From Bacteroidota bacterium (GTDB lineage: Bacteria > Bacteroidota > Bacteroidia > Chitinophagales > BACL12): 36,808 bases of DNA. Each line of letters begins with the position of its first letter. Position 1 is the first letter of the stretch. The stretch is from NCBI GenBank assembly GCA_016124275.1, contig WGOA01000086.1, forward strand, positions 1-36,808, given 5' to 3'. Position numbers and translations under genes: made by a program. The notes under the pieces are model-generated. The model did not search any database and had not been told where the DNA came from. It worked only from the letters and a program-made list of their open reading frames with translations. Shown piece after piece: positions 13,493 to 36,612 of this stretch.

Positions 13493-13530
13493 CCTGAATG
13501 GTGCATCTGCTTGAACCATAAGCAGCGGCA

Positions 13531-14226
13531 ATGCGGCCTAAACCAGCTACCATGTATCCCTTAGCCTCGCTTGTTGTCTTCCTGCCCTTGTTTTGGACGG
13601 GGCAGCCTGCTGTTCACGCCAAGACTCGGCCAGATATTCAACAAGAAGAGGCCAGCGAGAACAAGCCACAACCCCATCATCGGAGGATTGCTGCATCCAG
13701 CCAAAGTGCTGAAAACCCAGGCGTGAACAACCAGGACGATCGCTTCCTGAGCACGAGCGGTCGAATTGATTTTGTCTCCGAAGCCCCTTTAGAAAGCATT
13801 AAGGCTTGGTCCGATGAGTTGCGCGGGGTGCTTGAATTCACGGGTGCCTTTGCCTTCAGTGTGAGCATGTCCAGCTTTGAGGGCTTTAATTCGGGTTTGC
13901 AGCGCCAGCACTTCCAGGAAAACTACCTGGAAATCAGTCGATTCCCGAAAGCATCGTTTGAAGGTCACCTGATTGAACGTCCTGATCTGAGCAGACCGGG
14001 TACCTATCCTGTGCGCGTCCGGGGGCAATTGACCATTCACGGGGTGACGCGCGAACGGATTCTGCCTGGCAGCATCCAGGTCATGCCCGACAAAAGCGTG
14101 AAACTATCCGCTACATTCGACATTCCTTTACGAGATCATGGGGTTAACATTCCCAAAATCATGCACCAGAAAATTGCAGAGTCGGTGCGCGTTGCCGTTA
14201 ATGCCAGGCTTGTTGTTCCCTCCTGA
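13531..14226 (+). CDS. YceI family periplasmic protein
   Basis: The protein (231 aa) has a signal peptide ending near VHAKT and a lipocalin-like YceI domain from about residue 65. Recognisable are GRIDFVSEAPLESIKAWS, FEGFNSGLQRQHFQENYLE, FPKASFEGHL, the family core QLTIHGVTRER and KIAESVRVAVNARL. YceI proteins bind long isoprenoids such as polyprenols or quinone-like molecules in other bacteria; the ligand here is not known. The longer start at 13531 supplies Arg and Lys before the hydrophobic core, while the ATG at 13552 is the alternative. A second YceI lies at 19833, beyond the kinase and cytochrome genes. Confidence 0.88.
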   Translation: MRPKPATMYPLASLVVFLPLFWTGQPAVHAKTRPDIQQEEASENKPQPHHRRIAASSQSAENPGVNNQDDRFLSTSGRIDFVSEAPLESIKAWSDELRGVLEFTGAFAFSVSMSSFEGFNSGLQRQHFQENYLEISRFPKASFEGHLIERPDLSRPGTYPVRVRGQLTIHGVTRERILPGSIQVMPDKSVKLSATFDIPLRDHGVNIPKIMHQKIAESVRVAVNARLVVPS

Positions 14227-19733: not shown

Positions 19734-19832
19734 GCCCTAGATGTGCTGCAGGCATGGCCAAACAAATTAGCCTTTCTTCAAATTGGCCTTTCTTCAAATT
19801 GGCAAAGCGCCAAGACAAACCAAAAAAATACA

Positions 19833-20384
19833 ATGAGAAACATTATGTTAGTGGCCCTGCTCGCCATCAGCGTTCAGGCCGCCCAGGCGCAGAACCGTTG
19901 GTTCACCAAAGAAGGGTATGTGCGTTTTTACTCCCATACGCCTATGGAGGACATTGAAGCCAAAAACTACCAGGTAAACAGCCTGGTTGACTTCAGCACA
20001 GGAGATATGGCCTTCAGCATGTTGATGAAGAGCTTTCAGTTTGAAAAAGCCCTGATGGAAGAGCACTTTAATGAAAAGTATGTCGAAAGTGCCAAGTTCC
20101 CCAAAGCAACTTTTGAAGGTAAGTATGTGGCCGGTACCTCCATTGATCCGCGTAAAGCCGGCGAGCACAAAGTGACCGTTCAGGGCAAATTGACCATCCA
20201 CGGCGTAACCCGGGATGTGCAAACCACCGGTGTCTTCAAGGCAGATGGCAATGGTACGGTGGTAGGTACTGCTGTTTTCACGGTTAAGGTAGCCGACTAC
20301 GACATCAAAGTACCCGGCGTGGTGAAAGACAACATTGCCGAGAGCATTGAAATCTCTGTAAAGACGGAGTACAAGCCCATGTGA
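19833..20384 (+). CDS. YceI family protein
   Basis: The protein (183 aa) has a signal peptide (MRNIMLVALLAISVQAAQAQ) and a YceI domain: VRFYSHTPMEDIEAKN, FPKATFEGKYV, KLTIHGVTRDVQ and NIAESIEISVKTEY. It is a paralogue of the YceI at 13531, and the two flank the kinase, regulator and cytochrome genes. A bound isoprenoid or quinone-like ligand is possible by family analogy. The ATG at 19833 is chosen because it begins a standard signal peptide. The next gene starts 2 bases after the stop. Confidence 0.92.
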   Translation: MRNIMLVALLAISVQAAQAQNRWFTKEGYVRFYSHTPMEDIEAKNYQVNSLVDFSTGDMAFSMLMKSFQFEKALMEEHFNEKYVESAKFPKATFEGKYVAGTSIDPRKAGEHKVTVQGKLTIHGVTRDVQTTGVFKADGNGTVVGTAVFTVKVADYDIKVPGVVKDNIAESIEISVKTEYKPM

Positions 20385-22388: not shown

Positions 22389-23672
22389 TTATGCTCTGCT
22401 TTTAGCGGCCGCATCCGGAGATTTGGAATGAAGTTGCCGTTTATGCGCGGTTTTTACAACCCAGACCGGTACATCTTCGACAGATTGAAGCAAACTTTCT
22501 GTTACCGAGCCAATTAAGGCACCGGTTAAACCACTCCGACCTTTTCCGCCGATCAGGATCATGTCTGCGGGAAGGTCAGAAGCGCTTTCTGCAACGGTTC
22601 TTGCTACGCTTCGATCTGCCTTAGCGTTGACGATGACCCGGGCATTGGGCGCCTGGTATTTCTCCTTGAATTCTTCCATCTGTTCTTCTGCGGCTTCGCG
22701 AAGCAAGTCCACCATGTTGGAGCCAGCCAGCCCATCGTAGTAAATGGAAGATGGCAGGTGACAGGCGTGGAAGAGAAAAAGTTCTGAGCCTTGAATATGA
22801 TCACTAATCCATTCAGCGGTCTCCAACGCTTTTGCAGAAGGTGCTGAAAAGTCTGTGGGTACTAAAAAAGTTCGCAATTGGAAAGTCGGCTTTTCGGGTA
22901 CAAACAAAACCGAACACTCGGACTTGCGGGCAATTCTTCGAGGAATAACGCCGCTGCCCCCTACCCTTTTCTTCCTGCCCATGATCATCAATTCTGCTGT
23001 CTTAATGTGCGCCCAGCGAAGCAATTGGCTTTCGGGTTTACCCTCTACAACCATGCACTCTGTGGCGTAGCGCTCTGATTCTGGGAATTCCTCCCGAACC
23101 TTGGTTTGCATATCGCGAACCAGGCGTTCATCCAGGGGAAGTTCGGCATCGCTTAACGCACTCTTTGCGATATCCGGCAAATCGAGATTGGGATAAACGT
23201 GAACAAAGTAAATTTTCTCAGGCGATAGCATATCCGCCAAAGAAGCCGTGTATTCAATCACGGCGCGGTCCATTGCGGTAAAGTCAAGACCAACGATCCA
23301 GGTGATTGGAGTTTTCATGGGGGGGTGTTTTACTTGATCCAAACCTACAATGCTTCTGGTGGCACGCCCATGAGTGCGCTCATTACGAGGGCTAACCTTC
23401 ATCAAATACGAATCCAGCTCTGTGTTCTGCGCACAGGCCATTCTAAACAATTCGATCAGCTCGGCGCGAAAAGGTACTCGCCCAACGATGGCAAGTTTTC
23501 CATTGATTTCAAGTGCCGGGGTTCTGGAAACTCTGCGCTCGATCAAAAGATCCAAATCCTGAACAATAGATAAATCTATGTTCAGGCCAAGTGACACAGC
23601 AGCTTGACGGACTTTGTCTTCCATCATGCGTTGACGTTCGCAGCCGGTTCCAAAAATTCGAAGGCGCAGCAT
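22389..23672 (-). CDS. Thioredoxin-fold segment fused in frame to a tandem-Usp protein
   Basis: The open frame (427 aa) begins with a small thioredoxin-like domain (about residues 1-78: RLRIFGTGC, cis-Pro segment SRTPALEINGK, IVGRVPF) of the kind usually carrying GCxxC; here it is CERQ, so the second cysteine is missing. A 40-residue linker with no recognisable fold leads to a Usp pair starting at Met119 (MKTPITWIVGLDF), with GGKGRSGLTGALIGS as ATP site near the C-terminus. An internal promoter with a perfect operator lies in the linker DNA (23340-23383), so the 309-aa Usp from the ATG at 23318 is probably made on its own. Whether the full fusion is also made is open. Confidence 0.8.
   Translation of the reverse strand: MLRLRIFGTGCERQRMMEDKVRQAAVSLGLNIDLSIVQDLDLLIERRVSRTPALEINGKLAIVGRVPFRAELIELFRMACAQNTELDSYLMKVSPRNERTHGRATRSIVGLDQVKHPPMKTPITWIVGLDFTAMDRAVIEYTASLADMLSPEKIYFVHVYPNLDLPDIAKSALSDAELPLDERLVRDMQTKVREEFPESERYATECMVVEGKPESQLLRWAHIKTAELMIMGRKKRVGGSGVIPRRIARKSECSVLFVPEKPTFQLRTFLVPTDFSAPSAKALETAEWISDHIQGSELFLFHACHLPSSIYYDGLAGSNMVDLLREAAEEQMEEFKEKYQAPNARVIVNAKADRSVARTVAESASDLPADMILIGGKGRSGLTGALIGSVTESLLQSVEDVPVWVVKTAHKRQLHSKSPDAAAKSRA
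23340..23383 (-). promoter_or_regulatory. CRP/FNR-type operator and -7 box inside the fusion frame, before the Usp at 23318
   Basis: The dyad ATGAG-TGCG-CTCAT (23370-23383) has its centre 36.5 bases upstream of the last base of the -7 box TAGGTTTG (minus strand; 23340-23347). The box lies 22 bases before the ATG at 23318. The spacing is identical to three other promoters in this window and fits a class II activator at about -41. Confidence 0.7.
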
Positions 23673-23676
23673 AGGA

Positions 23677-24513
23677 CTAAGCGGGAAAAACCAACAGCGG
23701 AGAACGGGCGTGCCAGGCCATTTCGCGGGTCAGGCTCTCGCTGTCCCACTCGTCTTCCCGGCGGTGCCGACTGCGCAGGACCAATAAATCCGCTTCGCGA
23801 TTCTCCAGGTAATCGCGGAGGGTTTCGCCTAAGTCAACGCCGCGGACCAAGTCAAACGAACAACGGTCATCTTCCATTAAATCGTGAAAGGTCTGCTGGA
23901 AGTTTTGGTATTCATCCGGTTGATCAAAAACAGCGTGTTCCCGAATATGGAGAACCGTCAGGCGTGAATCCAGGCGGGCGGCCATGTATTGCAAAAACCG
24001 AAGGGTATTCCGGTCATTGTCGTGGAAATCGACGGCATAGACGATGTGCGAAGGGTCTTTGTCCATGGCCCCATCCGGGATTACCAGCACCGGGACGTCA
24101 GCCGTGCGCAACATGGTTGTTGCTACAGAGCCCAATCCCCCTTCGACCAATTCATGTGCGCCTTGTGTACCCATAATGATCAGGTCACAGGCAAAACGCT
24201 TGCTGAATGAAGCAGTTCCTTCTTCTGGGTAATCTTCAACCAACACCGTTTCTACCTGCACAAGGTCACCGGAACGCTTGACCCCAACCGGTTTGCCGGA
24301 AGCCAGAAATTCTTCCATCATGGCCTGAAGCCTGGTTCGTTCCGCTTCTACCCAAGCCTCTTCCGCATTGCCCTCCGCGAAGGCACTGATTGGAACGCGG
24401 AAGGCATGAAGCGCCACAATGTCCGCATCAAAGGCCGAAGCCAATCGCAGCGCATGATCCATGGCATGCCTGGACAGCGGGCTAAAATCGATGGGAACGA
24501 GTATTCGTTTCAT
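23677..24513 (-). CDS. Universal stress protein, tandem Usp domains
   Basis: The protein (278 aa) starts MKRILVPIDFSPLSRHA. The first domain carries GTQGAHELVEGGLGS, a complete G-2x-G-9x-G-S ATP motif; the second (from about HIVYAVDFHDNDRN) is degenerate and ends SPLLVFPA. The ATG at 24513 is chosen because an operator/promoter lies just upstream; an open frame extends further but through that promoter. The next gene on the same strand, the thioredoxin-fold/Usp frame, starts 4 bases after its stop. It is divergent from the FixL-like kinase, and the two share a 168-base intergenic region. Confidence 0.93.
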   Translation of the reverse strand: MKRILVPIDFSPLSRHAMDHALRLASAFDADIVALHAFRVPISAFAEGNAEEAWVEAERTRLQAMMEEFLASGKPVGVKRSGDLVQVETVLVEDYPEEGTASFSKRFACDLIIMGTQGAHELVEGGLGSVATTMLRTADVPVLVIPDGAMDKDPSHIVYAVDFHDNDRNTLRFLQYMAARLDSRLTVLHIREHAVFDQPDEYQNFQQTFHDLMEDDRCSFDLVRGVDLGETLRDYLENREADLLVLRSRHRREDEWDSESLTREMAWHARSPLLVFPA

Positions 24514-24531
24514 GGATGCCGAGTTTGCACT

Positions 24532-24575
24532 CAAAATACCCGGTTCCTCGTCTGCCTTACCATGACCTGTGTCAT
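24532..24575 (-). promoter_or_regulatory. CRP/FNR-type operator and -7 box before the Usp at 24513
   Basis: The perfect dyad ATGAC-CTGT-GTCAT (24562-24575) is centred 36.5 bases upstream of the final G of TATTTTG (minus strand, 24532-24538), which lies 19 bases from the ATG. No correctly spaced box serves the divergent kinase gene, so the site is assigned to the Usp. Confidence 0.75.
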
Positions 24576-24681
24576 TGGCTTCGCTCACCTCCATCAACCT
24601 ATGAGGGTTCCCAAAGGCTCAGAACGGGCGAAAAGACCCTGCTTCTGGGCATTTACCCCTAAATTTAAGGCCCCTGCAGGA

Positions 24682-25956
24682 ATGAAAACCTTAGAAAACA
24701 GTTCTGAAGCTTTTCTGAAATCCGTCTTTGATACGGCTGTGGACGGCATTATTGTTATTGACCATCGGGGCATTATGTTAACCGCTAATCCATCAGCAGG
24801 GCGGTTGTTCGGGTATTCGATGGAAGAAATGGTGGGGGTTAATGTTAATATGTTGATGCCCAGTCCTCATCGGGCACAACACGATCACTACATCCACCGC
24901 TATTTAAAGACCGGTCAGGCCCGGATCATCGGGATCGGACGCGAAGTGGAAGGCCGCAAAAAGGATGGAACCTCCTTTCCCTTTCGTTTGAGCATCAGCG
25001 AAGTCCTCCTGGATGATGGCGAAATGGGCTTTACCGGCATTATCCACGACATTTCTGAAGTGAAACGCGTTGAGCACGAACTCAGGGAACTCAATGCCGA
25101 ATTAGAAGGCAAAGTGCGCGAGCGAACCGAAGAGCTGTCCAAAGCGGTGAACCGCCTGTTAACGACCAACAGCGATCTTGAACACGAAGTGGCCGAACGG
25201 CGCCGCACGGAAAACAAACTCCGCAGGATGCACGTGGACCTGGAGGATGCCCTAAACCGCGAAAAAGAACTCGGAGATCTTAAATCGCGATTTTTAACCT
25301 TGGCCTCCCACGAGTTTCGCACACCCCTGACCACCATCTTGTCTTCCGCTTCCCTGATAGGCCGCTACGATGATGATGCCGGCCAGATCAAACGGTTGCG
25401 CCACATAGAACGCATCAATGGAGCTGTCCGGACCCTGACCGGATTGTTGGAAGACTTTTTGAGCGTGGGCAGGCTGGAGGAAGGAAAAATCCAACCCAAT
25501 TTTGAAGAAGCCAACCTGGAAGAGAAGCTCCGGGAGTGGACCAATGACTTCCAGGAGACCCTCTGGAAAGAGGGAACATTAGCATTTTTTGCTTCGGAAG
25601 CCGGCGCATTTAGTGCCTCCACCGATCTGCGCATCCTGCAAACCATTCTTTTCAACCTGCTTTCCAACGCCGTTAAGTATTCACTTGAACCGATCCAAAT
25701 CAAGGTATCGCTGCTGCGACAGGAAAACCTGGCCCTGATTAGCGTGCAGGACAATGGCATCGGGATACCCGAAAAGGACATGGAGCACCTCACAGAACGG
25801 TTCTTTCGAGCCACCAACGTCAGCCATATCCAGGGAACCGGTCTGGGATTGCACATTGTTCGGGAATACGCAGAACTTTTAGGGGGAACACTCTCCATCC
25901 AGTCCAAGGCCGATCAGGGTTCAACGTTTACCGTTGTATTACCGCTACTCCCTTAA
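24682..25956 (+). CDS. FixL-like haem-PAS sensor histidine kinase
   Basis: The protein (424 aa) has a PAS domain (about 8-120), a coiled coil (about 125-195), a dimerisation/phospho-acceptor domain with His210 (LASHEFRTPLTT) and an ATPase domain with NLLSNAVKYS, DNGIGIP and GTGLGLHI. No transmembrane helix is seen, so it is soluble. The PAS segment closely tracks Bradyrhizobium FixL around the haem: His67 (QHDHYIHRY), Arg73, Ile82 and Arg87 (IIGIGR) align by spacing with FixL His200, Arg206, Ile215 and Arg220. It should therefore be a haem oxygen sensor, kinase-active when oxygen is low; this is inferred by homology. The ATG at 24682 lies 15 bases after a TAAATTTA near-consensus box. The partner regulator begins 97 bases downstream. 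Confidence 0.92.
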   Translation: MKTLENSSEAFLKSVFDTAVDGIIVIDHRGIMLTANPSAGRLFGYSMEEMVGVNVNMLMPSPHRAQHDHYIHRYLKTGQARIIGIGREVEGRKKDGTSFPFRLSISEVLLDDGEMGFTGIIHDISEVKRVEHELRELNAELEGKVRERTEELSKAVNRLLTTNSDLEHEVAERRRTENKLRRMHVDLEDALNREKELGDLKSRFLTLASHEFRTPLTTILSSASLIGRYDDDAGQIKRLRHIERINGAVRTLTGLLEDFLSVGRLEEGKIQPNFEEANLEEKLREWTNDFQETLWKEGTLAFFASEAGAFSASTDLRILQTILFNLLSNAVKYSLEPIQIKVSLLRQENLALISVQDNGIGIPEKDMEHLTERFFRATNVSHIQGTGLGLHIVREYAELLGGTLSIQSKADQGSTFTVVLPLLP

Positions 25957-25975
25957 TGTTCAAGGAGTTAATTTT

Positions 25976-25990
25976 AGACTGCTCCAGTCT
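25976..25990 (+). other. Inverted repeat between the kinase and regulator genes
   Basis: AGACTG-CTC-CAGTCT is a perfect 6-base dyad 20 bases after the kinase stop. It may be a weak terminator or attenuator, or an operator for the regulator gene. It does not match the TGA-N6-TCA sites. Confidence 0.35.
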
Positions 25991-26053
25991 TAACTGGCGA
26001 TGCTTCAAGGCTTAAAGCATGAGCATTTCTCGAATAAACGCAGGCTATTCCGT

Positions 26054-27124
26054 ATGAAAGGCATTATCGTACTCATAGAAGACAACACCGATGTTCGGGA
26101 GAACATTGCTGAAATTTTGGAATTGGACGGTTACGAAGTCCATGCCGCAGCCAATGGCAAAGAAGGGGTCCGCATGGTCAGGGAGCAAAACCCGGATCTG
26201 GTCATCTGCGACATCATGATGCCGGAACTGGATGGTTACGGTGTACTCCACATGCTTAACCGAGACCCAAAAACGGGCCATATTCCCTTTATCTTCTTAA
26301 CGGCCAAGTCGGAGCGGGATGATTTTAGAAAAGGCATGAACCTGGGGGCTGATGATTACATCACCAAACCCTTTGAGGAGCTGCAACTTTTAGATGCCGT
26401 TCAAATGCGGCTCAACAAACGCCGCCAGTTTCAGGCCACGGCCATCAGTCGGGATGCGGAAGGGATTTCGAGTTTCATCAGCGACGCCAAAGCTTCAGGA
26501 GCCCTCCAGCATCTTTCTGAAGACCGCGAAATGCGCCGCCTGCGCCGCAAGGAAACCATTTTTCGCGAAGGGGACCGCCCGCGCTACCTCTATTTGTTGC
26601 AATCGGGCAAGATCAAGGCATACCGCGTCAGTGAAGACGGCAAAGAATACATTACCGATTTATTCAAGCCTGGCGACTTCTTCGGCATCAGCGCCCTGAT
26701 GCGCGAAACCACCTACGGCGATACCGCTGAGGTATTAGAAGATGCCGAAATCGTGCTTATTCCTGCCGACGACTTCTACGCCCTGGTGCACAGCGATAAA
26801 GATGTGGCACACCGTTTTATCCAGTTGTTGGCCAATCACCTGGAAGAAACGGAAATACGGCTGGTCCGCCAGGCCTACGACTCCGTTCGCAAACGCGTAG
26901 CGGATGGCTTGCTGCTGCTGGAAAGCCGCTACCAGGAGCAACAGGGGAAGGGCCCCTTCGCCATGCACATCATGCGCGACGATTTGGCGGGCATCGTGGG
27001 CACCGCCAAAGAAACCGTCATCCGCACCCTTACTGACTTTCGCCAGGAAGGCCTGGTTGAAATCGGCTCATCGGGCGAAATCATCATCAAACACCGAGAA
27101 GGGCTCGAGAACATTATCGCATAA
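26054..27124 (+). CDS. Receiver-CRP/FNR fusion transcription regulator (FixJ-FixK-like)
   Basis: The protein (356 aa) joins a receiver domain (1-120; Asp10, phospho-acceptor Asp53 in VICDIMMPELDGYG, Lys in YITKPFEE) to a CRP-type effector domain (about 155-270, FREGDRPRYLYLLQSGKIKAY) and a CRP winged helix (about 275-350). The recognition helix reads TAKETVIRTL, with Glu and Arg at the CRP half-site-reading positions, compatible with TGA-type half sites. The cyclic-nucleotide pocket lacks the CRP glutamate/arginine signature and there is no FNR cysteine cluster, so phosphorylation is the probable input. Pairing with the FixL-like kinase suggests one protein doing the work of FixJ and FixK. 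The ATG at 26054 begins the receiver fold. Confidence 0.92.
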   Translation: MKGIIVLIEDNTDVRENIAEILELDGYEVHAAANGKEGVRMVREQNPDLVICDIMMPELDGYGVLHMLNRDPKTGHIPFIFLTAKSERDDFRKGMNLGADDYITKPFEELQLLDAVQMRLNKRRQFQATAISRDAEGISSFISDAKASGALQHLSEDREMRRLRRKETIFREGDRPRYLYLLQSGKIKAYRVSEDGKEYITDLFKPGDFFGISALMRETTYGDTAEVLEDAEIVLIPADDFYALVHSDKDVAHRFIQLLANHLEETEIRLVRQAYDSVRKRVADGLLLLESRYQEQQGKGPFAMHIMRDDLAGIVGTAKETVIRTLTDFRQEGLVEIGSSGEIIIKHREGLENIIA

Positions 27125-27148
27125 GGCAACAAGTTCTGAGCCCTCCAT

Positions 27149-27167
27149 GCTTTCCTTATTGGAAAGC
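27149..27167. terminator. Bidirectional hairpin between convergent genes
   Basis: GCTTTCC-TTATT-GGAAAGC is a perfect 7-base stem, placed 24 bases after the regulator stop and 18 bases from the convergent DUF2892 stop. Confidence 0.55.
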
Positions 27168-27184
27168 CCCCCGTCAAATATGCG

Positions 27185-27415
27185 TTAGTGTGCTTGCTTT
27201 TGTTCAGACGTATTTCTTCCCAGCACAGCGTGAATGGGACACCAGCCGGTTACGGCAAAAATGAAAACCGGCACCACCAGCAACATGATCCACAACTGGT
27301 GTGTTAAGCCGCCAATAATTCCCAGAAGCATCATCACCGCATAGCGAATAATGATGTCATTGAAGCCCATATTGTAGTCGAAAAGGTGGCGATCTGCGTG
27401 GTTTACCGTGTTCAT
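27185..27415 (-). CDS. DUF2892 (YgaP-like) small membrane protein
   Basis: The protein (76 aa) has two transmembrane helices (about 23-40 and 43-58) and the family ending GWCPIHAVLGRNT, matching DUF2892, the membrane domain found alone or joined to rhodanese in YgaP. In other bacteria it is linked to sulfur or redox stress genes, but no reaction is known. It has its own operator-bearing promoter and therefore seems to belong to the same regulon as the Usp and rhodanese genes. Confidence 0.88.
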   Translation of the reverse strand: MNTVNHADRHLFDYNMGFNDIIIRYAVMMLLGIIGGLTHQLWIMLLVVPVFIFAVTGWCPIHAVLGRNTSEQKQAH

Positions 27416-27438
27416 ACAGCCTGGTGTTTTGTTGCAAT

Positions 27439-27482
27439 CAAAAGTAAATGGGCGGGAACCGCGGTCTGCTGACCAGGCTCAT
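27439..27482 (-). promoter_or_regulatory. CRP/FNR-type operator and -7 box before DUF2892
   Basis: CTGAC-CAGG-CTCAT (27469-27482) keeps TGA-N6-TCA. Its centre lies 36.5 bases upstream of the last base of TACTTTTG (minus strand, 27439-27446), an exact TAnnTTTG match 24 bases before the ATG. Confidence 0.65.
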
Positions 27483-27532
27483 TGGCTGCCATGATCTGAG
27501 TCCGTTAAAGGAGTTAAGCGTGTTTAGGGCGT

Positions 27533-28420
27533 TTAGGGCTTAACCACGAGCAAGGCCTGGCGCTCGTGCCGGTCAACCAGCCCTTCGGTGACACTGCCCA
27601 CCAAAAAGCGCTCCACGGCCGAATGACCTTTTGCCCCCATGATGACCAGATCTGCCGGGTGATTATTCAGGTAGTGGTGGATCTCGCGCGAAGGATTAGC
27701 CGCTTCTGCAGGCAACAACACGGCTTTGTGAAGCAAGGCAGAGGCATCGCACTTTTGAAGAAAGCGCTCCAGCGCATCGCGCGCATTGGCTCCCATGATG
27801 CGTTCAAACTGGGCAGCGGATCGCGACAGTTGAAAATGGCCCGGGGGTACATCAAAAACGTGCAAAATGGTAATCGTCACGTCATCTAACCGCTCCGCAA
27901 TTTGCTTTGCCCGAAAAATGGCCGCTGCGCTTTCAGGCGAAAAATCTACCGCAACGGTGATGGTTTGGATAACAGGCTCTGAGGATTCGGGCACAATCAG
28001 CACATTGCAGGGTAACTGGCGCATCAGGCGCTTGACTTCTACTGCATTCTCCCTGCCGTCCGTATGGCGCCCCATGACGACCAAATCGACCGACTTAACT
28101 TCTGCCCAGTGCCGGATCTGTTGCTCGGGCTTTCCCTCAATAACTTCAGCGTGCACGTTGGATGGGCCGGGATCGCTGAAATAGCGTTGAACCCGGTGCC
28201 TGATGTTGCTGGCCAACTCCTCATCCAAAGGCTTGCTGTAGGGATTCTCTTCTTTGAAGCGAAGCGAAAAATCCAATTGTTGGACCAGGTTAGGCGCGCA
28301 ATGGATAAAGTAAAGATCCTCAGGTCGGTAAATTTTAGACAGAAATTCTGTGTACCGGATCAGGTCTTCATCGGAATCGCTAAAATCAAGTGCAATCAGC
28401 AAACGCTTAAAAGCGGTCAT
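27533..28420 (-). CDS. Universal stress protein, tandem Usp domains
   Basis: The protein (295 aa) starts MTAFKRLLIALDFSDSDED. The first domain lacks a clean ATP loop; the second carries GAKGHSAVERFLVGS (G-2x-G-9x-G-S) and ends QALLVVKP. In overall plan it resembles the Usp encoded at 23318, with FIHCAPN matching FVHVYPN after the first helix, so the two are probably a duplicated pair. The ATG at 28420 starts the fold. Two operator-like dyads lie in the 329-base upstream region. Downstream comes DUF2892, which has its own promoter. Confidence 0.93.
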   Translation of the reverse strand: MTAFKRLLIALDFSDSDEDLIRYTEFLSKIYRPEDLYFIHCAPNLVQQLDFSLRFKEENPYSKPLDEELASNIRHRVQRYFSDPGPSNVHAEVIEGKPEQQIRHWAEVKSVDLVVMGRHTDGRENAVEVKRLMRQLPCNVLIVPESSEPVIQTITVAVDFSPESAAAIFRAKQIAERLDDVTITILHVFDVPPGHFQLSRSAAQFERIMGANARDALERFLQKCDASALLHKAVLLPAEAANPSREIHHYLNNHPADLVIMGAKGHSAVERFLVGSVTEGLVDRHERQALLVVKP

Positions 28421-28749
28421 GGCAAAATCCTTTGGGCCAAAAATGGCTGGATATTCGCCAAAGGGTTTATGTCTGCGATCAATCCGCGTTCTGAGCCTCG
28501 TCAGTGAGGCGAAATCCGTGCCGCTAAAACAATACAAATAGATTAATCCCCCCTAAATACCGGGCGGCCCGATTGACCAAATAGCAATCGGGCCGCTCAC
28601 GGTAAACGCACCAATCAATATGGCACTAAAGTGGCCTGAACAAGCTAAAGGATTGGTGACCTCAGTCACTCAAGGTATTGATTCAAGAGCATCGCTGAAT
28701 GAACCCTCCCCGAGGCCTCAGCCTCGCGCAATTCCCCCAAAAAACGGTG
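28421..28749 (-). promoter_or_regulatory. 329-base region upstream of Usp with two dyads and one strong hairpin
   Basis: No gene is seen. The region holds CTGAG-CCTC-GTCAG (28491-28504), about 71 bases from the Usp ATG but with only a poor -7 box (ACCCTTTG) two bases off the usual spacing. A perfect 11-base hairpin, GCGGCCCGATT/AATCGGGCCGC with an 11-base loop (28564-28596), follows. A perfect GTGAC-CTCA-GTCAC (28656-28669) lies 236 bases from the ATG. The hairpin could terminate sulP or structure a long Usp leader. Confidence 0.5.
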
Positions 28750-30492
28750 TTAGGTTCTGGGAGCGGTACGCACCGCCGCGGAAACCGATGCCTCGTTTGC
28801 ATGACGACCTGCAACAGCCTCCTGCAGCGTCATGAAAACATGGTTGCGACCCAGTTTCTCAAAAAAGCCCGCGTGCTCCAGCTTGTCGCGAACAGGTCCG
28901 ATCAAACCCGAAAGGCGCAAGGCGATGCCTTCTCTTTGCAATTCTTCCCATACGTCTTGTAAGGAATGCAATCCGGTGGAATCGATGGCGGAAATGGTTG
29001 CGGCATCCAACACCAACACCCGGGTGCCGGGTCGGGCAGCCAGATTCTCCCGAATAGCCTGTTGCCAGAACGACGCATTGGCAAAGAACCATTGGCCGTC
29101 CGGGCGGAGGATGAGCGTGTTCGGAGGCTCGATAGCTTCGGGAAAGCGTTGCACGTTGCGGTAGATGCCCTTTCCCCCGTACTCACCGAGCACCGCGTAA
29201 TGCGGGCGGGAGGACCGGTACACCAGGTCGGCTATGGACAGCGCTACCCCCGCCAGGATTCCCGCTTCGACACCCAAGGTAACCGTAATGGCAAAGGTGG
29301 CGATCAACATGAACAAGTCGCGGCGGTCGTTGCGGTAGAGGTAGCGCACTTCTTTCAGGTCGATGAGCCCATAGACGGCGACCAGAATGATGGCCGCCAG
29401 CACGGCCTGCGGCAGACTGTGGAACAGCGGAGTTAAAAATAACAGGGTCAATGCGATTAATGCTGCGCTGATGATGGCCGCTAATCCGGATTGAGCCCCA
29501 GCCTGTTCATTGACGGCCGTGCGGGAAAAACCGCCCGTGGTGGGATGGGCCTGAAAAAAAGAACCGGCGATGTTTGCCGCTCCCAGCGCAATGAGCTCTT
29601 TGTTGGCATCTACCTCGTAATTGCGGTGCTTTCGCTGAACGGCTCGGGCCACGGCGTAAGATTCCATAAAGGAAATCAGGGCGATGGTCAGCGCTATCGG
29701 AGCCAGATGCCGGACAACCGACCAAAGACCATCCGGATAACGCTGGAGCGCCTCGGCAGCAAAAGGCAGGCCGGGTTGAGGCAATCCGGAGGGAATCTGG
29801 CCAATGATTTTTACGCCCATAGCATCAAGCGCCAACAGCTGCACCACAGCGATGCCCGCAACAACGGCCAACAGCGGCCCAGGCAGGCGGGGATCGATTC
29901 GCTTGCCGATCAGAATGAGGGCAATAGCCCCCAGCCCTAACCCAAGCGTGACCCCGTGAACCTGCTGAATCTGGCTGAACAATGCCCCCAACAAAACATG
30001 CAATTGCTGCGTGGAGGGCAAAGGAATTCCAGCCAGGTGTTTGAACTGGCTAAACCCGATGATGAGCGCGGCCCCCGTGGTGAAGCCGCTGATGACCGGA
30101 TGCGAAAGAAAGTTGACCAGAAACCCGAGGCGAAGCAGACCCATGGCCAGTTGAAAAATGCCTACCATGGCCGCAAGCAGAATGGCCATTGCCAAAAAAA
30201 CTGCCGGGTCACCGCCTGCCAGCGCACCAACGCCCGTGTTGACCAACAAGCTAATTAGGGCAACGGGCCCTACCGCCAAGTGCCGCGAGGTGCCAAAAAC
30301 CGCGTAAACCAGCAGCGGCACAGTAGCCGAATAAAGTCCGTAAATCGGCGGTAAACCCGCAATCATGGCATAGGCCATTCCCTGGGGAATCAGCATCACA
30401 CCGACCGTTAACCCGGCAAAGAGGTCACCGCGAAGCCACTCCCTCCGATAATCGCGCATCCAGCGCAGCCCGGGCATCCAACGTTCCAGCAT
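28750..30492 (-). CDS. SulP family anion (sulfate) transporter with STAS domain
   Basis: The protein (580 aa) has an N-terminal membrane domain with about 12-14 helices beginning LRGDLFAGLTVGVMLIPQGMAYA, the SulP signature. GLPPIYGLYSA and HLAVGPVALIS follow, and the C-terminal STAS domain (about 440-560) includes VLVLDAATISAIDSTGLHSL. SulP proteins move sulfate, bicarbonate or related anions. Next to a sulfur-type molybdoenzyme operon on the same strand, sulfate or sulfite exchange is the sensible guess, though bicarbonate cannot be excluded. Its promoter (30528-30571) has a half-conserved copy of the local operator. Confidence 0.93.
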   Translation of the reverse strand: MLERWMPGLRWMRDYRREWLRGDLFAGLTVGVMLIPQGMAYAMIAGLPPIYGLYSATVPLLVYAVFGTSRHLAVGPVALISLLVNTGVGALAGGDPAVFLAMAILLAAMVGIFQLAMGLLRLGFLVNFLSHPVISGFTTGAALIIGFSQFKHLAGIPLPSTQQLHVLLGALFSQIQQVHGVTLGLGLGAIALILIGKRIDPRLPGPLLAVVAGIAVVQLLALDAMGVKIIGQIPSGLPQPGLPFAAEALQRYPDGLWSVVRHLAPIALTIALISFMESYAVARAVQRKHRNYEVDANKELIALGAANIAGSFFQAHPTTGGFSRTAVNEQAGAQSGLAAIISAALIALTLLFLTPLFHSLPQAVLAAIILVAVYGLIDLKEVRYLYRNDRRDLFMLIATFAITVTLGVEAGILAGVALSIADLVYRSSRPHYAVLGEYGGKGIYRNVQRFPEAIEPPNTLILRPDGQWFFANASFWQQAIRENLAARPGTRVLVLDAATISAIDSTGLHSLQDVWEELQREGIALRLSGLIGPVRDKLEHAGFFEKLGRNHVFMTLQEAVAGRHANEASVSAAVRTAPRT

Positions 30493-30500
30493 AGCGTTCC

Positions 30501-30520
30501 AAAGGCCCTTTGTGGCCTTT
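30501..30520 (-). other. Leader hairpin just before the sulP start
   Basis: AAAGGCC-N6-GGCCTTT, a perfect 7-base stem, occupies nearly all of the predicted short leader and ends 8 bases from the ATG. It could affect ribosome access. No ligand-binding fold is recognised. Confidence 0.35.
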
Positions 30521-30527
30521 GTGGGGG

Positions 30528-30571
30528 CAAAGTAACGGTGTCAGCCCCCTATGTTGCGTGACTAAAGTTCC
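30528..30571 (-). promoter_or_regulatory. sulP promoter with a half-conserved CRP/FNR-type site
   Basis: TTACTTTG (minus strand, 30528-30535) is a near-consensus -7 box. GTGAC-TAAA-GTTCC (30558-30571) sits at the exact 36.5-base offset seen at the other promoters, but only its GTGAC half is conserved. Confidence 0.45.
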
Positions 30572-30651
30572 TCAAACCCGGGCCTGGCGGCGGATCACTG
30601 AGCCACAGCGGCTTTACATGGCCGGAGCGCCCACCCCTGCCAGGCAAAGGC

Positions 30652-33540
30652 TTATCCCTGTTGCGGCGGCGGCGGAGTGTGGTAATAGGCAGCATCTACG
30701 GGGCGAAGGGGCCTCGGCAGCCAGAGCGGCCGCCGCAGTCCATTCGGACCGGGTGCCGGACGGGCCAGCTTGAGCCACTCCCGATAGACCTCCATGGATT
30801 TTTCGGTATCCACGAAAACGTCGCCATAGCGGTCTTCTTGCCCAGCCTTGTGCAGCCGCACGCGCTGGTGCCAGCAATGCATCCCGCTGATGGGATCAGG
30901 ATGCACAGGAAAAGTTATGTTTTGATGCACGCCGCCATCGGACCAGAAAATGCGCGACGAATCCGGATCAGGGCTTTCGTAGGGGCTGATGCCCTTCAGG
31001 GTGCGCATCGAGTAGCCGCTGCCCTTTTTCTCAATGGCCACCGTATTCACCGCCCAGCGGTTGCCCAAGCCATCTTGCGGTCTGCGCCAGCGGCCAATGT
31101 GGTGCGAGCAGGCCACTACGCCAGGCTTCATGCTTTGCGTCACCCAGACCTTGTCCACAAAATATCCGATGTCCGTTTCCACCCGAAGCAAATCGCCGTT
31201 TTGAAGGCCCAGGTGCGCCGCATCCTCTGGATGCATCCAAACCGGGTTGCGGTTGCTGATTTCGGCAAGCCATTTGGCATTGCCCGACCGGGAGTGAATC
31301 AGCGTGGGCAGTCGAAAGGTGGGCACCAACGGATACTCGTTGTTCGCTTTGTTGAGTTGATCGGGATGGATATGGCTTTTGATGTAAACTGGTATCGCGT
31401 ACTCCGGCCATTTCCAATCCACCATGGTTGCCGAAAAGAACTCCTGGCGCCGCGAAGGGGTTGGCCAGCCAACCCGTGCCTTGTCCCCGACCATCACACC
31501 GATCGGTTCGCCGTTCTTCGTGATCAACCCCGTGGCCGGATCGGTCTGTGTGCCTTGCAGCTGCTCAGGACTTAGGGGCTTTTCGTGCTTTTGGTAGCCA
31601 AATTTTTCTACCTCAAATGCGCCGTACTTGCGCATGTAATCCAACGGAGTGATGCCTTCCAGAGCCGCAGCCTCCGGCAGGCCGGCGGTGTGTTCAAAAA
31701 TGTACTGATAATATTCATCAACTGTAATTTTCTGATCGCCGGGCCTGTACGGCGAAAGAAAATGTTTGCGAATGCCCAGACCTCCGTCCGGATCCATGCG
31801 CCAACTCAGCTCAATCCAAAATTCGTCTTCCTCCCAAACCTCGCCGGGATTGGCCTCATAAGTGAGCGCTACCGGCTTGCCTGCCCGCCTGGCCGCTTCG
31901 CGCAACACAGGCTGCCGGAAGGCAATCCAGGTGCCGGAATGGGTAGCATATGAATTTATATCGTGCCGTTCGGACGCCATGCCCATGGGCAGCACATAGT
32001 CGGCAAAATAGGCGGTCTCGTTCCAGGTGGGTGTCAGGGCAACATGGCAGCCTACCTTGTCCTCGTCCTGCAACATGTCCATCCACATAAACCCATCCGG
32101 ATAGGTCCAGACCGGATTGAATACACGGGTGAAATAGACGTCCATGCGCCCGCGGCCTTCGCGCAGAAAATGCGGGAGCAGGAAACTCATTTCGAAATGG
32201 GCCAAGGGGTATTCATCGGGAAAATGCAGCTCGTTCCAGAACTTGCCCGCCGGCGGATTGTCAAAGAACGAAGGCTTAAACTTGTTCCATATGTTGGGCG
32301 ATGTTCCACCTTCGGTTCCCACAGAACCCGTGAGCACATTGAGGAAGTGGAGGCAACGCGCAACGGCCCATCCGCCCAGATTACCGGAACCGGCGCTGCG
32401 CCAGGTATGCGTAGCAAAACGCGAACCTGCCTGCCCGATGAGCCGGGCCACATCAACAATCTTTTGGGCCGGAACCCCTGATTCCTTTTCGGCAAACTCC
32501 GGCGTGTACGCCGCATAATCCTGCAACAAGACCTCCAGGAACCGCTCAAAGCGCGGCTCTTCTTGCGGAAAACGGTGCTTCAGGTAAGCGGCCCAATTGA
32601 CCCAATCCTCCAAAAAACGGCGGTCGAAACGCTGCTCTACGAGTAAAATTCGCGCCATGGCCAGCAGGATGGCAGCTTCCGAACCCGGATAGGTGGGCAG
32701 CCAGTGATCGGCCATGGAGGCGGTGTTGGACAATCGCGGATCCAAAACCACCAGTTTGGCACCTGCCATCATGCCTTCAATGATGCGCTGTGCGTGCGGG
32801 TTAAAGAAATGCCCGCTTTCTAAATGCGCCGAGATCAACAAGATGACCCGGGCATTTGCGTGGTCAGGCGAAGGGCGATCGTAGCCCTGCCAGAGGTTGT
32901 ACCCGGTGCGGGCACCCGCAGAACAAATATTGGTGTGGGAATTGTGGCCGTCCACACCCCAGGCCTTCAGCACCCGATCCATGTAGCCTTCGTGCCCAGG
33001 ACGCCCTACGTGGTAAACCACTTCGTTGCGGCGGTCTTCGCGCAAGGCCTTGCCAATCCGGGCGGCGATGTCGTTGAGCGCTTCGTCCCAGGAAACCCGC
33101 TCAAACTGGCCACTGCCGCGTGGACCGCTGCGTTTGAGTGGGTATAAAATGCGATCCGGGTCGTTGATTTGGTTAATCGTTGCAGGGCCTTTGGCACAGT
33201 TTCGACCCCGACTGGCCGGATGCCAGGGATTGCCCTCGAATTTGCGTACGGTGCCCGTTTGCTTGTCAACGTATGCCAGTAAACCGCAGGCAGACTCGCA
33301 GTTGAAGCACGTCGTAGGCACGATCCGGTACTGCTTTTTTTCCCGCAAAGGCCAGGATTTGGCTTCGTACTCCTCCCAATCGTCCCAGCGATCGGGCGGC
33401 GGGTAATTGCTCAAATCGCCGGGCTCATTCATGGCCTCCAGGGGCTCGTCCCGCGCAGCCGATTCCGCCCGCAAGTCCGGGATCAAGCCCACGCTTTCGG
33501 CAAAGCGCTCCATCCAACCCGGTTTTCCTGATCCTGCCAT
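30652..33540 (-). CDS. Molybdopterin oxidoreductase, SoeA/PsrA-like catalytic subunit
   Basis: The protein (962 aa) is a bis-MGD molybdoenzyme of the DMSO reductase family. The N-terminal [4Fe-4S] ligands are Cys78, Cys81, Cys85 and Cys115 (TTCFNCESACG...GRNCAKG). HTNICSAGARTGYN probably provides a cysteine ligand to molybdenum, as in polysulfide, thiosulfate and sulfite-type members. No twin-arginine signal is visible, so the enzyme should face the cytoplasm, as SoeA does and unlike PsrA/PhsA. With the FeS-NrfD gene upstream, SulP downstream and a rhodanese at the head, a quinone-linked sulfite dehydrogenase (SoeABC-like) is the best guess. A reductase acting on polysulfide or another oxyanion remains possible. 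The only ATG after the upstream stop is at 33540; the 128-base leader holds repeats. Confidence 0.85.
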   Translation of the reverse strand: MAGSGKPGWMERFAESVGLIPDLRAESAARDEPLEAMNEPGDLSNYPPPDRWDDWEEYEAKSWPLREKKQYRIVPTTCFNCESACGLLAYVDKQTGTVRKFEGNPWHPASRGRNCAKGPATINQINDPDRILYPLKRSGPRGSGQFERVSWDEALNDIAARIGKALREDRRNEVVYHVGRPGHEGYMDRVLKAWGVDGHNSHTNICSAGARTGYNLWQGYDRPSPDHANARVILLISAHLESGHFFNPHAQRIIEGMMAGAKLVVLDPRLSNTASMADHWLPTYPGSEAAILLAMARILLVEQRFDRRFLEDWVNWAAYLKHRFPQEEPRFERFLEVLLQDYAAYTPEFAEKESGVPAQKIVDVARLIGQAGSRFATHTWRSAGSGNLGGWAVARCLHFLNVLTGSVGTEGGTSPNIWNKFKPSFFDNPPAGKFWNELHFPDEYPLAHFEMSFLLPHFLREGRGRMDVYFTRVFNPVWTYPDGFMWMDMLQDEDKVGCHVALTPTWNETAYFADYVLPMGMASERHDINSYATHSGTWIAFRQPVLREAARRAGKPVALTYEANPGEVWEEDEFWIELSWRMDPDGGLGIRKHFLSPYRPGDQKITVDEYYQYIFEHTAGLPEAAALEGITPLDYMRKYGAFEVEKFGYQKHEKPLSPEQLQGTQTDPATGLITKNGEPIGVMVGDKARVGWPTPSRRQEFFSATMVDWKWPEYAIPVYIKSHIHPDQLNKANNEYPLVPTFRLPTLIHSRSGNAKWLAEISNRNPVWMHPEDAAHLGLQNGDLLRVETDIGYFVDKVWVTQSMKPGVVACSHHIGRWRRPQDGLGNRWAVNTVAIEKKGSGYSMRTLKGISPYESPDPDSSRIFWSDGGVHQNITFPVHPDPISGMHCWHQRVRLHKAGQEDRYGDVFVDTEKSMEVYREWLKLARPAPGPNGLRRPLWLPRPLRPVDAAYYHTPPPPQQG

Positions 33541-33591
33541 GGGTACGCTGTTTTTGTGTGTGCTGCGTCTGTTTGATGCGGTCCTTTCTGC

Positions 33592-33665
33592 GTCTGTTGC
33601 CGCGTTTGTTGCTCCGTTTGTTGCTCCGTTTGTTGCTCCGTTTGTTTGAGCCGTGTGTTTGAGCC
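33592..33665. repeat. Degenerate 12-13-base tandem repeat in the leader of the molybdoenzyme gene
   Basis: Three perfect copies of GTTTGTTGCTCC (33604-33639) are flanked by GTCTGTTGCCGC (33592-33603), GTTTGTTTGAGCC (33640-33652) and GTGTGTTTGAGCC (33653-33665). On the coding (minus) strand the array almost lacks T and has little folding potential. It fills the gap between the NrfD-fusion stop (33669) and the next ATG (33540). Confidence 0.85.
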
Positions 33666-33668
33666 GTT

Positions 33669-35297
33669 TTAACTCAGGGGAAGGCGCTGTGGCGCTTCGA
33701 CCCAAATTCGTTCGCCAATCCAAAGCCCAACGAGTACCAGCAAGGCGCACAGCGGCAACCAGATAGCACTCGGAAAAACGGCTGGCGCCAAGGTGAGGAC
33801 CAACATCGGAACGGCGTTGCCAACCAGCACCAATCCCCCCCAAAACCAGCGGCGGTAAAAACCGCGGGTGATGGCGTGAACAACTTCTTCGATGGCCGTG
33901 TTGGCGTGCGTGAGGCTGAGTTCGGCGGCCGTGATCAGCAGGTTAGCGCCAATGGACCAGGCCAACAGCCTGGCGGCCGGTTCGCCCCACCCCCCCAGCG
34001 AAGAATGCAACACCGACGCAGCCGCAAGCAAGGCAGCGCCCGCCATGACCGCGTGAACCAGCATGTGCAGGGCTAAAACCGGGCTCTGCCAAAAATCGCG
34101 GCCCTTTGCTTGCGCAAACAAAAAGGCCGTGTACACGGCGGTGCCAAACGCCAGCGGATAAGCCAGCCAACGACCCGTCAGGCGCAAGGCTTCGGCATCG
34201 AGCAACAGGCCAATGCCCCACAGCGCAAGTGCCGCTCCATACCCGGTAATCAGGTACCCTCCCCGCACCAGCCAGGACTTCCAATGCGGGCGAAACAAGA
34301 CGTACAAAAAGCGGCGGGGCTGATCCAGGTCGGCCACCAGGAGCAGGCCCGTCAGCAACAAAAACACCAGGCCCACCGCAACAGCCAGCCCTTCGGCGGC
34401 CGCGTCAGGCAGCAAAACCGGCCCCATCAGGCCCATGGCCAGCACTACCCCTGACGAAAGGGCCTTGGTCCACACATACGTGTACACTTCACGGCCCCAA
34501 AGCAGTCCCTTATCCGGCGTATCGTACACCCGTCGCGCTTTGCCGAGCAGCACTTCGACCTGACGCGTTGGAGCGGCCTGCACCGGATCGGGGAGCGCCC
34601 CCTGCTCCGGCATCGTAAAGCGCGAAGCCAGATCCAAAACATCGGGGTTGACCGGGCGGCTTTGTGCGTAACGCGCAAAATGCCCGACACCGGCGCTTTG
34701 GCTGTTCCAAATATACGATTCACTGCGCTCCGTAGCGCTCGGATTCAGCGAGGACTCATCGCCGTTTACGTAAAAGAGGTTCGGGCGTGTACCCTTGTCT
34801 GCGCGGCGAACAGTGACTTGCTCCCGCGCAACGGTCTGCGCAATTTCTGAAGCTGGATCGTCCAGATCACCCGAGAGAATAGCGTGTTCAGGGCAAACAA
34901 TCACGCAGGCCGGTTGCAAGCCCAGATCCACCCGATGAGCGCAGTAATTGCATTTGGCGGCGGTATGCGTTTCCGGGTCGATGTAGAGCGCATCATAGGG
35001 ACAAGCCTGCATGCAACTCTTGCAACCGATGCAGCGCCGGTTGTCAAAATCAACGATGCCATCCGCGCGAATGAACAGGGCCTGCGTCGGGCAAATGGTC
35101 ACGCAAGGCGCGTCCGTGCAATGGTTGCAGCGCATAACCGAAAACATTCGCCGCGTGTTGGGAAAGCTGCCCTTTTCGACCTGCTTAACCCAGGTGCGGT
35201 TCACCCCCAGCGGCACGTCGTGCTCGGACTTGCAGGCCACGGTGCAGGCATGGCACCCGATGCATTTCCTGTTGTCGATGACAAATCCGTAACGCAT
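33669..35297 (-). CDS. FeS-NrfD fusion: electron-transfer and quinone-binding membrane subunit
   Basis: The protein (542 aa) joins a DmsB/PsrB-type ferredoxin (about 1-190) to an NrfD/PsrC-type membrane domain (about 265-540, around eight helices). The ferredoxin has four cysteine sets: CIGCHACTVAC from Cys12, CNHCTDAPCVTIC, CIGCKSCMQAC and CNYC...C...C, enough for four [4Fe-4S] clusters. In most related enzymes these are two separate proteins (SoeB and SoeC, or PsrB and PsrC); here one chain does both. It would carry electrons between the molybdenum subunit and menaquinone. The ATG at 35297 is chosen since it starts the ferredoxin fold (MRYGFVIDNRKCIGC). Confidence 0.9.
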   Translation of the reverse strand: MRYGFVIDNRKCIGCHACTVACKSEHDVPLGVNRTWVKQVEKGSFPNTRRMFSVMRCNHCTDAPCVTICPTQALFIRADGIVDFDNRRCIGCKSCMQACPYDALYIDPETHTAAKCNYCAHRVDLGLQPACVIVCPEHAILSGDLDDPASEIAQTVAREQVTVRRADKGTRPNLFYVNGDESSLNPSATERSESYIWNSQSAGVGHFARYAQSRPVNPDVLDLASRFTMPEQGALPDPVQAAPTRQVEVLLGKARRVYDTPDKGLLWGREVYTYVWTKALSSGVVLAMGLMGPVLLPDAAAEGLAVAVGLVFLLLTGLLLVADLDQPRRFLYVLFRPHWKSWLVRGGYLITGYGAALALWGIGLLLDAEALRLTGRWLAYPLAFGTAVYTAFLFAQAKGRDFWQSPVLALHMLVHAVMAGAALLAAASVLHSSLGGWGEPAARLLAWSIGANLLITAAELSLTHANTAIEEVVHAITRGFYRRWFWGGLVLVGNAVPMLVLTLAPAVFPSAIWLPLCALLVLVGLWIGERIWVEAPQRLPLS

Positions 35298-35397
35298 GAG
35301 CAGTGAGTTTCGGGGGAAGGGCTTACGTGGGCATGGCAAGGGAATGCTTGCAAAAGGCTGCCTCGGTCAACGCAGGCGGCAGCGGCTACACGGACCT

Positions 35398-35847
35398 TCA
35401 GGGCACCGCAGACGCTGTGGCTGCCTGAAAGGTTGGCAACTCACTGACCGGTTGCAGCGGTAAGCCAGCTTCCTTCCAAGCCTTCACACCGCCTTTCAGG
35501 CTGTACACCTCCGCAAAGCCCATGTCGTCCAGAATTTTGGCGATCTGACCAGAACCCTGGCCATCGCCGCAATACAGGTAAACGGCCCGCGCGTGATCCA
35601 CGTCGGTAAAGGCTGCCCGGGGCTTTTGCTCACCGAGTTTAAGCACCTGGGCATTGGGTAACCCTACCTGGCGCGGCTTATCCTTGAGATAAATGTCCAC
35701 CAAGAGGGCATTGGGATTCCCGGCCAGTTGGGCTTGAAACGCTTGAGGGGCCAGTCCCTCTGCTTGCGGCGATTTAGCGCAACCGGCATAGAGGCCAAAC
35801 AAAACAAAAAGTCCGAAGACCGGAAACAAGGTGGCTTTGACGTTCAT
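35398..35847 (-). CDS. Rhodanese-domain lipoprotein
   Basis: The protein (149 aa) has a lipoprotein signal with Cys23 (LYAGC) and a single rhodanese domain. The active-site loop is YLYCGDGQGSGQIA with Cys93, followed by DDMGFAEVYSLKGGVKAW, the family C-terminal signature. It probably carries or transfers sulfane sulfur on the outer face of a membrane. It is the first gene of a probable operon with the FeS-NrfD fusion (100-base gap) and the molybdoenzyme, which supports a sulfur substrate for the complex. The ATG at 35847 is chosen for the signal peptide and for its promoter 26 bases upstream. Confidence 0.9.
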   Translation of the reverse strand: MNVKATLFPVFGLFVLFGLYAGCAKSPQAEGLAPQAFQAQLAGNPNALLVDIYLKDKPRQVGLPNAQVLKLGEQKPRAAFTDVDHARAVYLYCGDGQGSGQIAKILDDMGFAEVYSLKGGVKAWKEAGLPLQPVSELPTFQAATASAVP

Positions 35848-35872
35848 GGAACAAGGATTTTGATGCCTGGAC

Positions 35873-35917
35873 CAAAATAGGCTTTCTGCAACAAGGACCG
35901 GGGTGACCTGGGTCACC
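35873..35917 (-). promoter_or_regulatory. CRP/FNR-type operator and -7 box of the rhodanese/NrfD/molybdoenzyme operon
   Basis: The 16-base perfect palindrome GGTGAC-CTGG-GTCACC (35902-35917) is the longest copy in the window. Its centre is 36.5 bases upstream of the last base of TATTTTG (minus strand, 35873-35879), which is the same -7 box sequence as at the Usp gene at 24513. Confidence 0.78.
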
Positions 35918-35958: not shown

Positions 35959-36612
35959 TCAGGTCGGCAACCAACGCGCAGTCTGGCTTAATTCAATCCG
36001 GTTGCGGCCGAGTTTTAACTGACCATCATGCTCCAGGCGCTTGAGAAGCCGCGAAATCACTTCGCGCGAAGTATGCAACTCCTGGGCAATGTCCTGGTGC
36101 GACAATTGAAGAATATGGGTTCCCTCCGCCTTGTGGCGACCGGCCAGATACTGGATCAACCGCTCATCCATGCGCAAAAAGGCCACGGCATCAAAGGCCT
36201 TGAGCAGTTCGTTGAAGCGCATGGCATACGTCTGCATGATGAAGGCTTTCCAGGAGGGAAACTGGGTCATCCACTGGTCCAGATAAGCCACCGGAATCAT
36301 CAGAAGTTGGGTCTGTTCCTCCACGATGGCCAGGACAGAACTCTTCTGGTCGGCCATGCAGCAACTCAGCGACATGGCACACGTCTGACTTCCGGACAAA
36401 AAATACAACAAGACCTCACCCCCTTCCCCATCCTGCCGGCTAATGCGTATGCGCCCTTCAACCAACAGCGGAATGGCTTTGATGTAAGAACCCGGCCGCA
36501 TCAGCTCATCGCCCGGACTGAGGTTCATTTCACGCCCCTGCTCCCAAATCTGATCCAACAACGCGGACTCCTGAAAGAAGGGGAAAGCGTGCGCAAGGGA
36601 TTCTTTGGTCAT
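35959..36612 (-). CDS. Crp/Fnr family transcription regulator
   Basis: The protein (217 aa) has a cyclic-nucleotide-binding-like domain (about 20-135) and a winged helix whose recognition helix reads TSREVISRLLKRLE. Arg, Glu and the later Arg occupy the CRP positions that read GTGA, and ExxSR is also the FNR pattern, so the local GTGAC-N4-GTCAC dyads are plausible targets. The effector domain carries TCAMSLSCCM (Cys78, Cys84, Cys85), recalled as recurrent in Bacteroidota members and possibly redox or metal responsive. There is no N-terminal FNR cysteine cluster. It lies between two rhodanese genes. No copy of the dyad precedes its own start; the upstream region is strongly AT-rich. Confidence 0.93.
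   Translation of the reverse strand: MTKESLAHAFPFFQESALLDQIWEQGREMNLSPGDELMRPGSYIKAIPLLVEGRIRISRQDGEGGEVLLYFLSGSQTCAMSLSCCMADQKSSVLAIVEEQTQLLMIPVAYLDQWMTQFPSWKAFIMQTYAMRFNELLKAFDAVAFLRMDERLIQYLAGRHKAEGTHILQLSHQDIAQELHTSREVISRLLKRLEHDGQLKLGRNRIELSQTARWLPT

Follow-up and report, generated by a model that had tools for sequence, protein, structure and literature searches.

The 36,808-nucleotide stretch analysed here (contig WGOA01000086.1 of the Bacteroidota assembly GCA_016124275.1, lineage BACL12; hereafter the window) carries a set of TGA-N6-TCA dyads located at a fixed distance from TAnnTTTG promoters. We consider it probable (roughly 0.8) that these dyads are the operators of a receiver-CRP fusion protein encoded at 26054-27124, controlled by a FixL-like histidine kinase that senses oxygen via a haem-PAS domain. 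In the proposed mechanism the kinase, encoded just upstream of the fusion, would sense oxygen through this domain and phosphorylate the receiver as oxygen falls, whereupon the CRP part would bind the operators. One operator would be centred near -41.5, i.e. at the class II position, and in the full form of the element a second would lie 22 bp further upstream, near -63.5 and facing roughly the same side of the helix, the two together recruiting RNA polymerase to the TAnnTTTG promoter. The predicted targets in the window are universal stress protein (Usp) genes, a gene for a YgaP-like membrane protein and a rhodanese/NrfD/molybdoenzyme operon; outside it they are ccoS-ccoN and the CcoI-like ATPase gene of the cbb3 oxidase.

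The initial annotation had described four dyads, each centred 36.5 bases before the last base of a -7 box. All four were recovered where it had placed them, facing genes on the minus strand, and the offset was identical in 4/4 cases (Table 1). Boxes were counted as TAnnTTTG or TAnTTTG ending 15-60 bases downstream of the dyad centre, with the offset of 36.5 written as 37, and on this count only 4 of the 14 TGA-N6-TCA dyads in the window are followed by a box, all at offset 37. The dyad fixes six bases only, and with 14 occurrences the sites might be read as chance palindromes adjoining chance -7 boxes. However, 1000 dinucleotide-preserving shuffles of the window never yielded more than two composites at one offset (mean 0.27 composites over 46 offsets; two at one offset in 2/1000), and peaks at the same offsets are also seen in the 40 loci from relatives and in nine named loci (see below), leaving chance, already judged unlikely in the initial annotation, with a negligible probability. 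The genome-wide scan that had been suggested returned 4 matches to the strict composite at this spacing in 3.42 Mb, all of them in the window. A first pattern applied to the genome, TGACNNNNGTCA with TANNTTTG, proved too strict to match anywhere, and the strict composite with a variable gap gave 32 matches (12 + 20, over 31 spacings each; backwards controls 6 and 3).

The single dyad appears to be only half of the element. Distal dyads (TGATGAAGGTTA, TGATGGAGGTGA and GGACTCAGATCA, one mismatch each) precede three of the proximal ones at a distance of exactly 22 bp, and the search of 116 positions (29 shifts x 4 sites) from which they were obtained gave 6 one-mismatch matches, 3 of them at shift 22; no distal dyad was found 22 bp upstream of the dyad at 35904. 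The same spacing was observed around receiver-CRP genes of relatives, studied as 40 stretches (742,312 bases) taken from 40 of the 84 matching genomes, some of these loci being close kin and their counts consequently not independent. Among 95 dyad-box pairs at offsets 12-70, 37 fell at 36-38 and 27 at 58-60, with peaks at 37 and 59 and the remaining 31 scattered, and the distance between dyads was 22 in 37 cases, no other spacing from 12 to 60 occurring more than twice. A search of genome contigs returned at least 80 loci; among the 80 retained, 11 (L092-L102, all bearing what we take to be Bacteroidota names) match across both halves of the fusion, the other 69 mainly in the receiver. In nine of the 11 (the short L092 and L100 being set aside) offsets 37 and 59 occurred seven times each and any other offset at most once; in the 69 control loci (1.1 Mb), a weak control on account of the many phyla mixed in it, no offset occurred more than 3 times. 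A variable-gap scan of 99 relatives with the TANTTTG form only was noisy, and no figure was taken from it. A CRP/FNR-superfamily activator working from about -41, as initially proposed, has good support from the recurrence of the offset in relatives and from the association of the operators with one regulator group; the class II position is predicted from the constant offset, and the value of -41.5 from the -7 box. The single-dyad element of that proposal did not hold, since the ancestral-looking form would be the tandem pair.

The distribution of the tandem across genomes points to the regulator. Perfect tandems followed by TTTG gave 203 matches in 85 of 149 genomes, and the backwards pattern gave 0. 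Fusion orthologues occur in 84/149 genomes searched, our own included, and by the fusion alone the tandem is present in 62/84 genomes with it and in 23/65 without. In 20 of the latter 23 a stand-alone CRP whose cysteines are conserved is encoded, the exceptions being G066, G077 and G130. These FNR-type proteins, whose cysteines are conserved in 20/20 stand-alone relatives, were called at an E-value cut-off of 1e-80 that was chosen after the gap in the hits had been seen (1.5e-81, then 2.6e-70). When both regulators are considered, the tandem is found in 57/74 genomes with the fusion only, 20/28 with the FNR type only, 5/10 with both and 3/37 with neither, i.e. in 82/112 genomes with fusion or FNR-type CRP vs 3/37 with neither (Fisher p 1.2e-12, the genomes being related and the counts and p values therefore not independent). 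Five genomes without the fusion (G008, G028, G040, G052 and G054) have weaker stand-alone hits and no tandem; counting them as FNR-type changes the figures to 20/33 for FNR-type only and 3/32 for neither. Comparison of 14 fusions with 20 FNR-type proteins showed one common recognition helix, GTxxE[ST]xIR. In the tree the 14 fusions form one clade (support 95/94) and the FNR types two supported clades, with little support as a single group (22/8); fusions and FNR types group with two long-branched other CRPs (87/96), far apart from the type encoded at 35959 (100/100).

Two proteins, those encoded at 26054 and 35959, had been put forward as candidate regulators, and the evidence favours the former, the receiver-CRP fusion. 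An assignment of the sites to the second CRP could draw on its gene adjoining both the rhodanese operon and the most palindromic site (35902-35917), and on a marginal association, the tandem being present in 69/101 genomes with a 35959 orthologue vs 16/48 without (149 in total, p 8e-5). Yet within the genomes that have the fusion or an FNR-type protein the orthologue makes no difference (69/93 vs 13/19, p 0.58), where it occurs without either of them the tandem is found in 0/8 genomes, and the protein has a different recognition helix (SREVISR) and belongs to a distant clade. It was rejected as the regulator on these grounds, and we regard the assignment as highly improbable. It is also unlikely that several CRP/FNR proteins share the operators, with FNR-type proteins acting elsewhere, the fusion acting here and a further CRP exerting overlapping control. 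The common helix of fusion and FNR-type proteins, the 10 genomes that contain both kinds and the related helices in other CRPs would all fit such an arrangement, whereas in the present genome the FNR-type profile matches nothing but the fusion at E 1e-45 or better.

The fusion belongs to the CRP/FNR superfamily by its PF00027 (E 5.8e-24) and PF13545 (E 1.2e-14) domains, and its N-terminus is a PF00072 receiver (E 1.1e-30), so that its architecture is not that of a one-component protein. The receiver residues D10, D53, T83 and K105 are invariant in 13/13 sequences, and the FNR-type cysteines (three N-terminal and one internal) are not conserved in the fusion as judged from the alignment. The best solved relatives of the kinase are FixL structures (E 8.6e-32), with which a histidine and a GIGR motif align; we take the former to be the proximal haem ligand, and the role of the GIGR arginine is likewise presumed. 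As predicted from its sequence, the kinase combines a haem-PAS domain bearing the proximal histidine with kinase domains (HisKA and HATPase_c), as FixL does. A FixL-like kinase is encoded directly upstream of the fusion in 36/40 loci of relatives, and the histidine is retained in 34/36 of these (not in L185 and L207).

The regulon had been described as local, which proved too narrow because ccoS-ccoN and the CcoI-like ATPase gene, on other contigs, carry degenerate tandem operators; a purely local regulon is thus rejected. Allowing up to two mismatches, the genome contains 10 tandems (backwards control 1), of which the 3 with one mismatch are all window sites. Among the 7 with two mismatches, one (C50:23417) precedes ccoS and ccoN, and two (C50:26066 and C95:22199), identical in sequence and located on two contig ends, precede the CcoI-like metal ATPase gene; the ccoS and ATPase assignments were made with family models. 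A further one, at 28439-28503, lies before another Usp gene and was absent from the initial annotation, and the remaining ones (two on C7 and one on C48) look like chance. No composite was seen upstream of the Usp gene on contig C9. The suggestion that sulP might be a target was rejected, as the half site at 30558-30571 on the minus strand (GAACTTTAGTCA) has 2 mismatches in the six core bases and no distal partner.

In relatives, the choice of downstream frames followed a mechanical rule; four sites had no frame and were left out, and the counts are raw ones. Downstream of tandems (first 30 of the 203 matches) they comprise 10/30 CcoN, 3 P-type ATPases, 2 Usp and 2 YceI. The 34 frames near the regulator include 4 Usp, 3 Rrf2, 3 flavodoxin and 3 cytochrome c proteins, 2 each of FixG, CBS, ScdA and radical SAM proteins (the latter two being HemN), 1 CcoN and 1 metal ATPase. 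The cbb3 oxidase, FixG, CcoI and HemN belong to a low-oxygen programme, and the downstream genes (cbb3 oxidase, metal ATPase, HemN, FixG, Usp) are microoxic in kind. YceI-family genes are also present in the window, at 13531-14226 and 19743-20384, without a composite.

Several observations, besides the relatedness of the genomes, weigh against control of these operators by the fusion and an oxygen-sensing kinase. In 22/84 genomes with the fusion, this one included, there is no perfect tandem; the distal dyads in the window are degenerate, and one window promoter has none. Five other CRPs have a related recognition helix, GLR[VI]ETVIR. Four of the 40 loci (L199, L200, L203 and L208) have no aligned kinase, two of the kinases lack the histidine, and the GIGR arginine is retained in only 23/36. 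The NCBIfam FixL model NF041777 scores 168.2 bits vs a cut-off of 850 and matches the PAS part only, and the FixK model NF050806 scores 89.3 bits vs 300, matching the CRP part only. Finally, the ccoN frame (G000 contig C50, 21771-23162) holds one in-frame stop, which may reflect either a genuine break or a fault of the assembly.

Table 1. Genes and promoter-operator elements of the window, with the basis of each assignment
Feature	Position	Strand	Basis or detail
Universal stress protein gene	22389-23318	-	Frame open up to 23672 with thioredoxin-like domain
Predicted promoter-operator of usp 22389-23318	23340-23404	-	Distal dyad 23393-23404 (one mismatch), proximal 23371-23382, -7 box TAGGTTTG 23340-23347
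Universal stress protein gene	23677-24513	-	Domain match
Predicted promoter-operator of usp 23677-24513	24532-24596	-	Distal dyad 24585-24596 (one mismatch), proximal 24563-24574, -7 box TATTTTG 24532-24538
PAS histidine kinase of FixL type, proposed to sense oxygen through haem	24682-25956	+	Pfam PAS, HisKA, HATPase_c; FixL structures closest
Receiver-CRP fusion, proposed regulator	26054-27124	+	Response_reg, cNMP_binding and HTH_Crp_2
YgaP-like transmembrane protein (DUF2892 in the initial annotation)	27188-27415	-	PF11127
Predicted promoter-operator of YgaP-like gene 27188-27415	27439-27503	-	Distal dyad 27492-27503 (one mismatch), proximal 27470-27481, -7 box TACTTTTG 27439-27446
Universal stress protein gene	27533-28420	-	Domain match
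Degenerate tandem before usp 27533-28420	28438-28503	-	Distal dyad 28492-28503 intact, proximal 28470-28481 one mismatch, CATTTTTG 28438-28445
Molybdopterin oxidoreductase	30652-33843	-	Every NCBIfam subfamily model below cut-off
4Fe-4S and NrfD membrane protein	33669-35339	-	Domain match
Rhodanese-domain protein, first gene after 35904 dyad	35398-35847	-	Domain match
Predicted promoter-operator of rhodanese/NrfD/molybdoenzyme genes	35873-35917	-	Single dyad 35904-35915 in GGTGAC-N4-GTCACC, -7 box TATTTTG 35873-35879
Second CRP-family regulator, rejected as a candidate for these operators	35959-36612	-	Domains, helix, clade, co-occurrence

The site at 23370 lies within the open frame that joins the thioredoxin-like domain to Usp and may be an internal promoter; this promoter is weaker in the same-genus genome G001. 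Over 22389-23672 the thioredoxin-like domain (PF13192) is followed, without a break in frame, by a Usp pair, and the joined frame is also open in G001 (L172 2447-3794, minus strand). At the G001 counterpart of the 24532 promoter the proximal dyad and the first distal half, TTGATGG, are retained and the spacer has diverged, and the G001 orthologue of usp 27533-28420 also has a two-mismatch tandem upstream. A further TGACCTCAGTCA dyad, at 28657-28668 in the stretch separating usp from sulP, lacks a -7 box at the offset typical of the others. The CRP encoded at 35959-36612, next to the rhodanese and molybdoenzyme genes, contains the cysteine-rich stretch CAMSLSCCM. In the relatives, L186 has a single tandem pair (13491-13525) between divergent genes for an Rrf2 regulator and a cytochrome c; there and in L187 (6393-6427) both offsets are met from a box on each strand, and one pair appears to serve two promoters.

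The proposed system resembles FixL-FixJ-FixK of the Alphaproteobacteria in its predicted haem-PAS kinase, receiver, CRP/FNR-type activator and cbb3 oxidase target, all as read from sequence. It differs in that receiver and CRP form one protein, the transcription step from FixJ to fixK being absent, and in its promoters, which are of the Bacteroidota type. The operators also differ, as tandem TGA-N6-TCA dyads stand here in place of the single TTGA-type sites (consensus TTGANCNNGATCAANG) given in PMC4999443. According to the same source, FnrN sites already present in Caulobacterales came under the control of a transferred fixLJ-fixK, which parallels the exchange of sensors proposed below. FNR, an oxygen sensor with an Fe-S cluster, is of the same superfamily, and its operators and targets are similar. 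In 28 relatives the fusion is replaced by FNR-type proteins, which have conserved cysteines and match solved FNR structures, whereas the fusion lacks those cysteines and has a receiver instead. At E. coli CRP promoters of class I/II a site lies near -41.5 and another about two helical turns upstream (-61.5). The arrangement found here is similar, but the distal site would be near -63.5, the -7 element is TAnnTTTG, and the positions are those predicted from the -7 box.

It appears quite likely that Bacteroidota keep one operator grammar (dyads 22 bp apart upstream of TAnnTTTG, at about -41.5 and -63.5) and that the oxygen sensor behind it is what is exchanged. This sensor would be of one of two kinds, an Fe-S FNR-type protein or the FixL-like kinase together with the fusion, the latter a two-component CRP/FNR protein that would shorten FixL-FixJ-FixK to one step. 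No description of a receiver-CRP fusion or of the tandem operator was found in the literature searched, most subscription papers being outside that search. PMC12937710 describes the CRP/FNR family as one-component, without a response-regulator domain, and the fusion runs against this recent description. For a large phylum, the element offers a testable low-oxygen regulon with sites specific enough for direct scanning, and it would be an example from nature of sensors being exchanged while the operators stay fixed.

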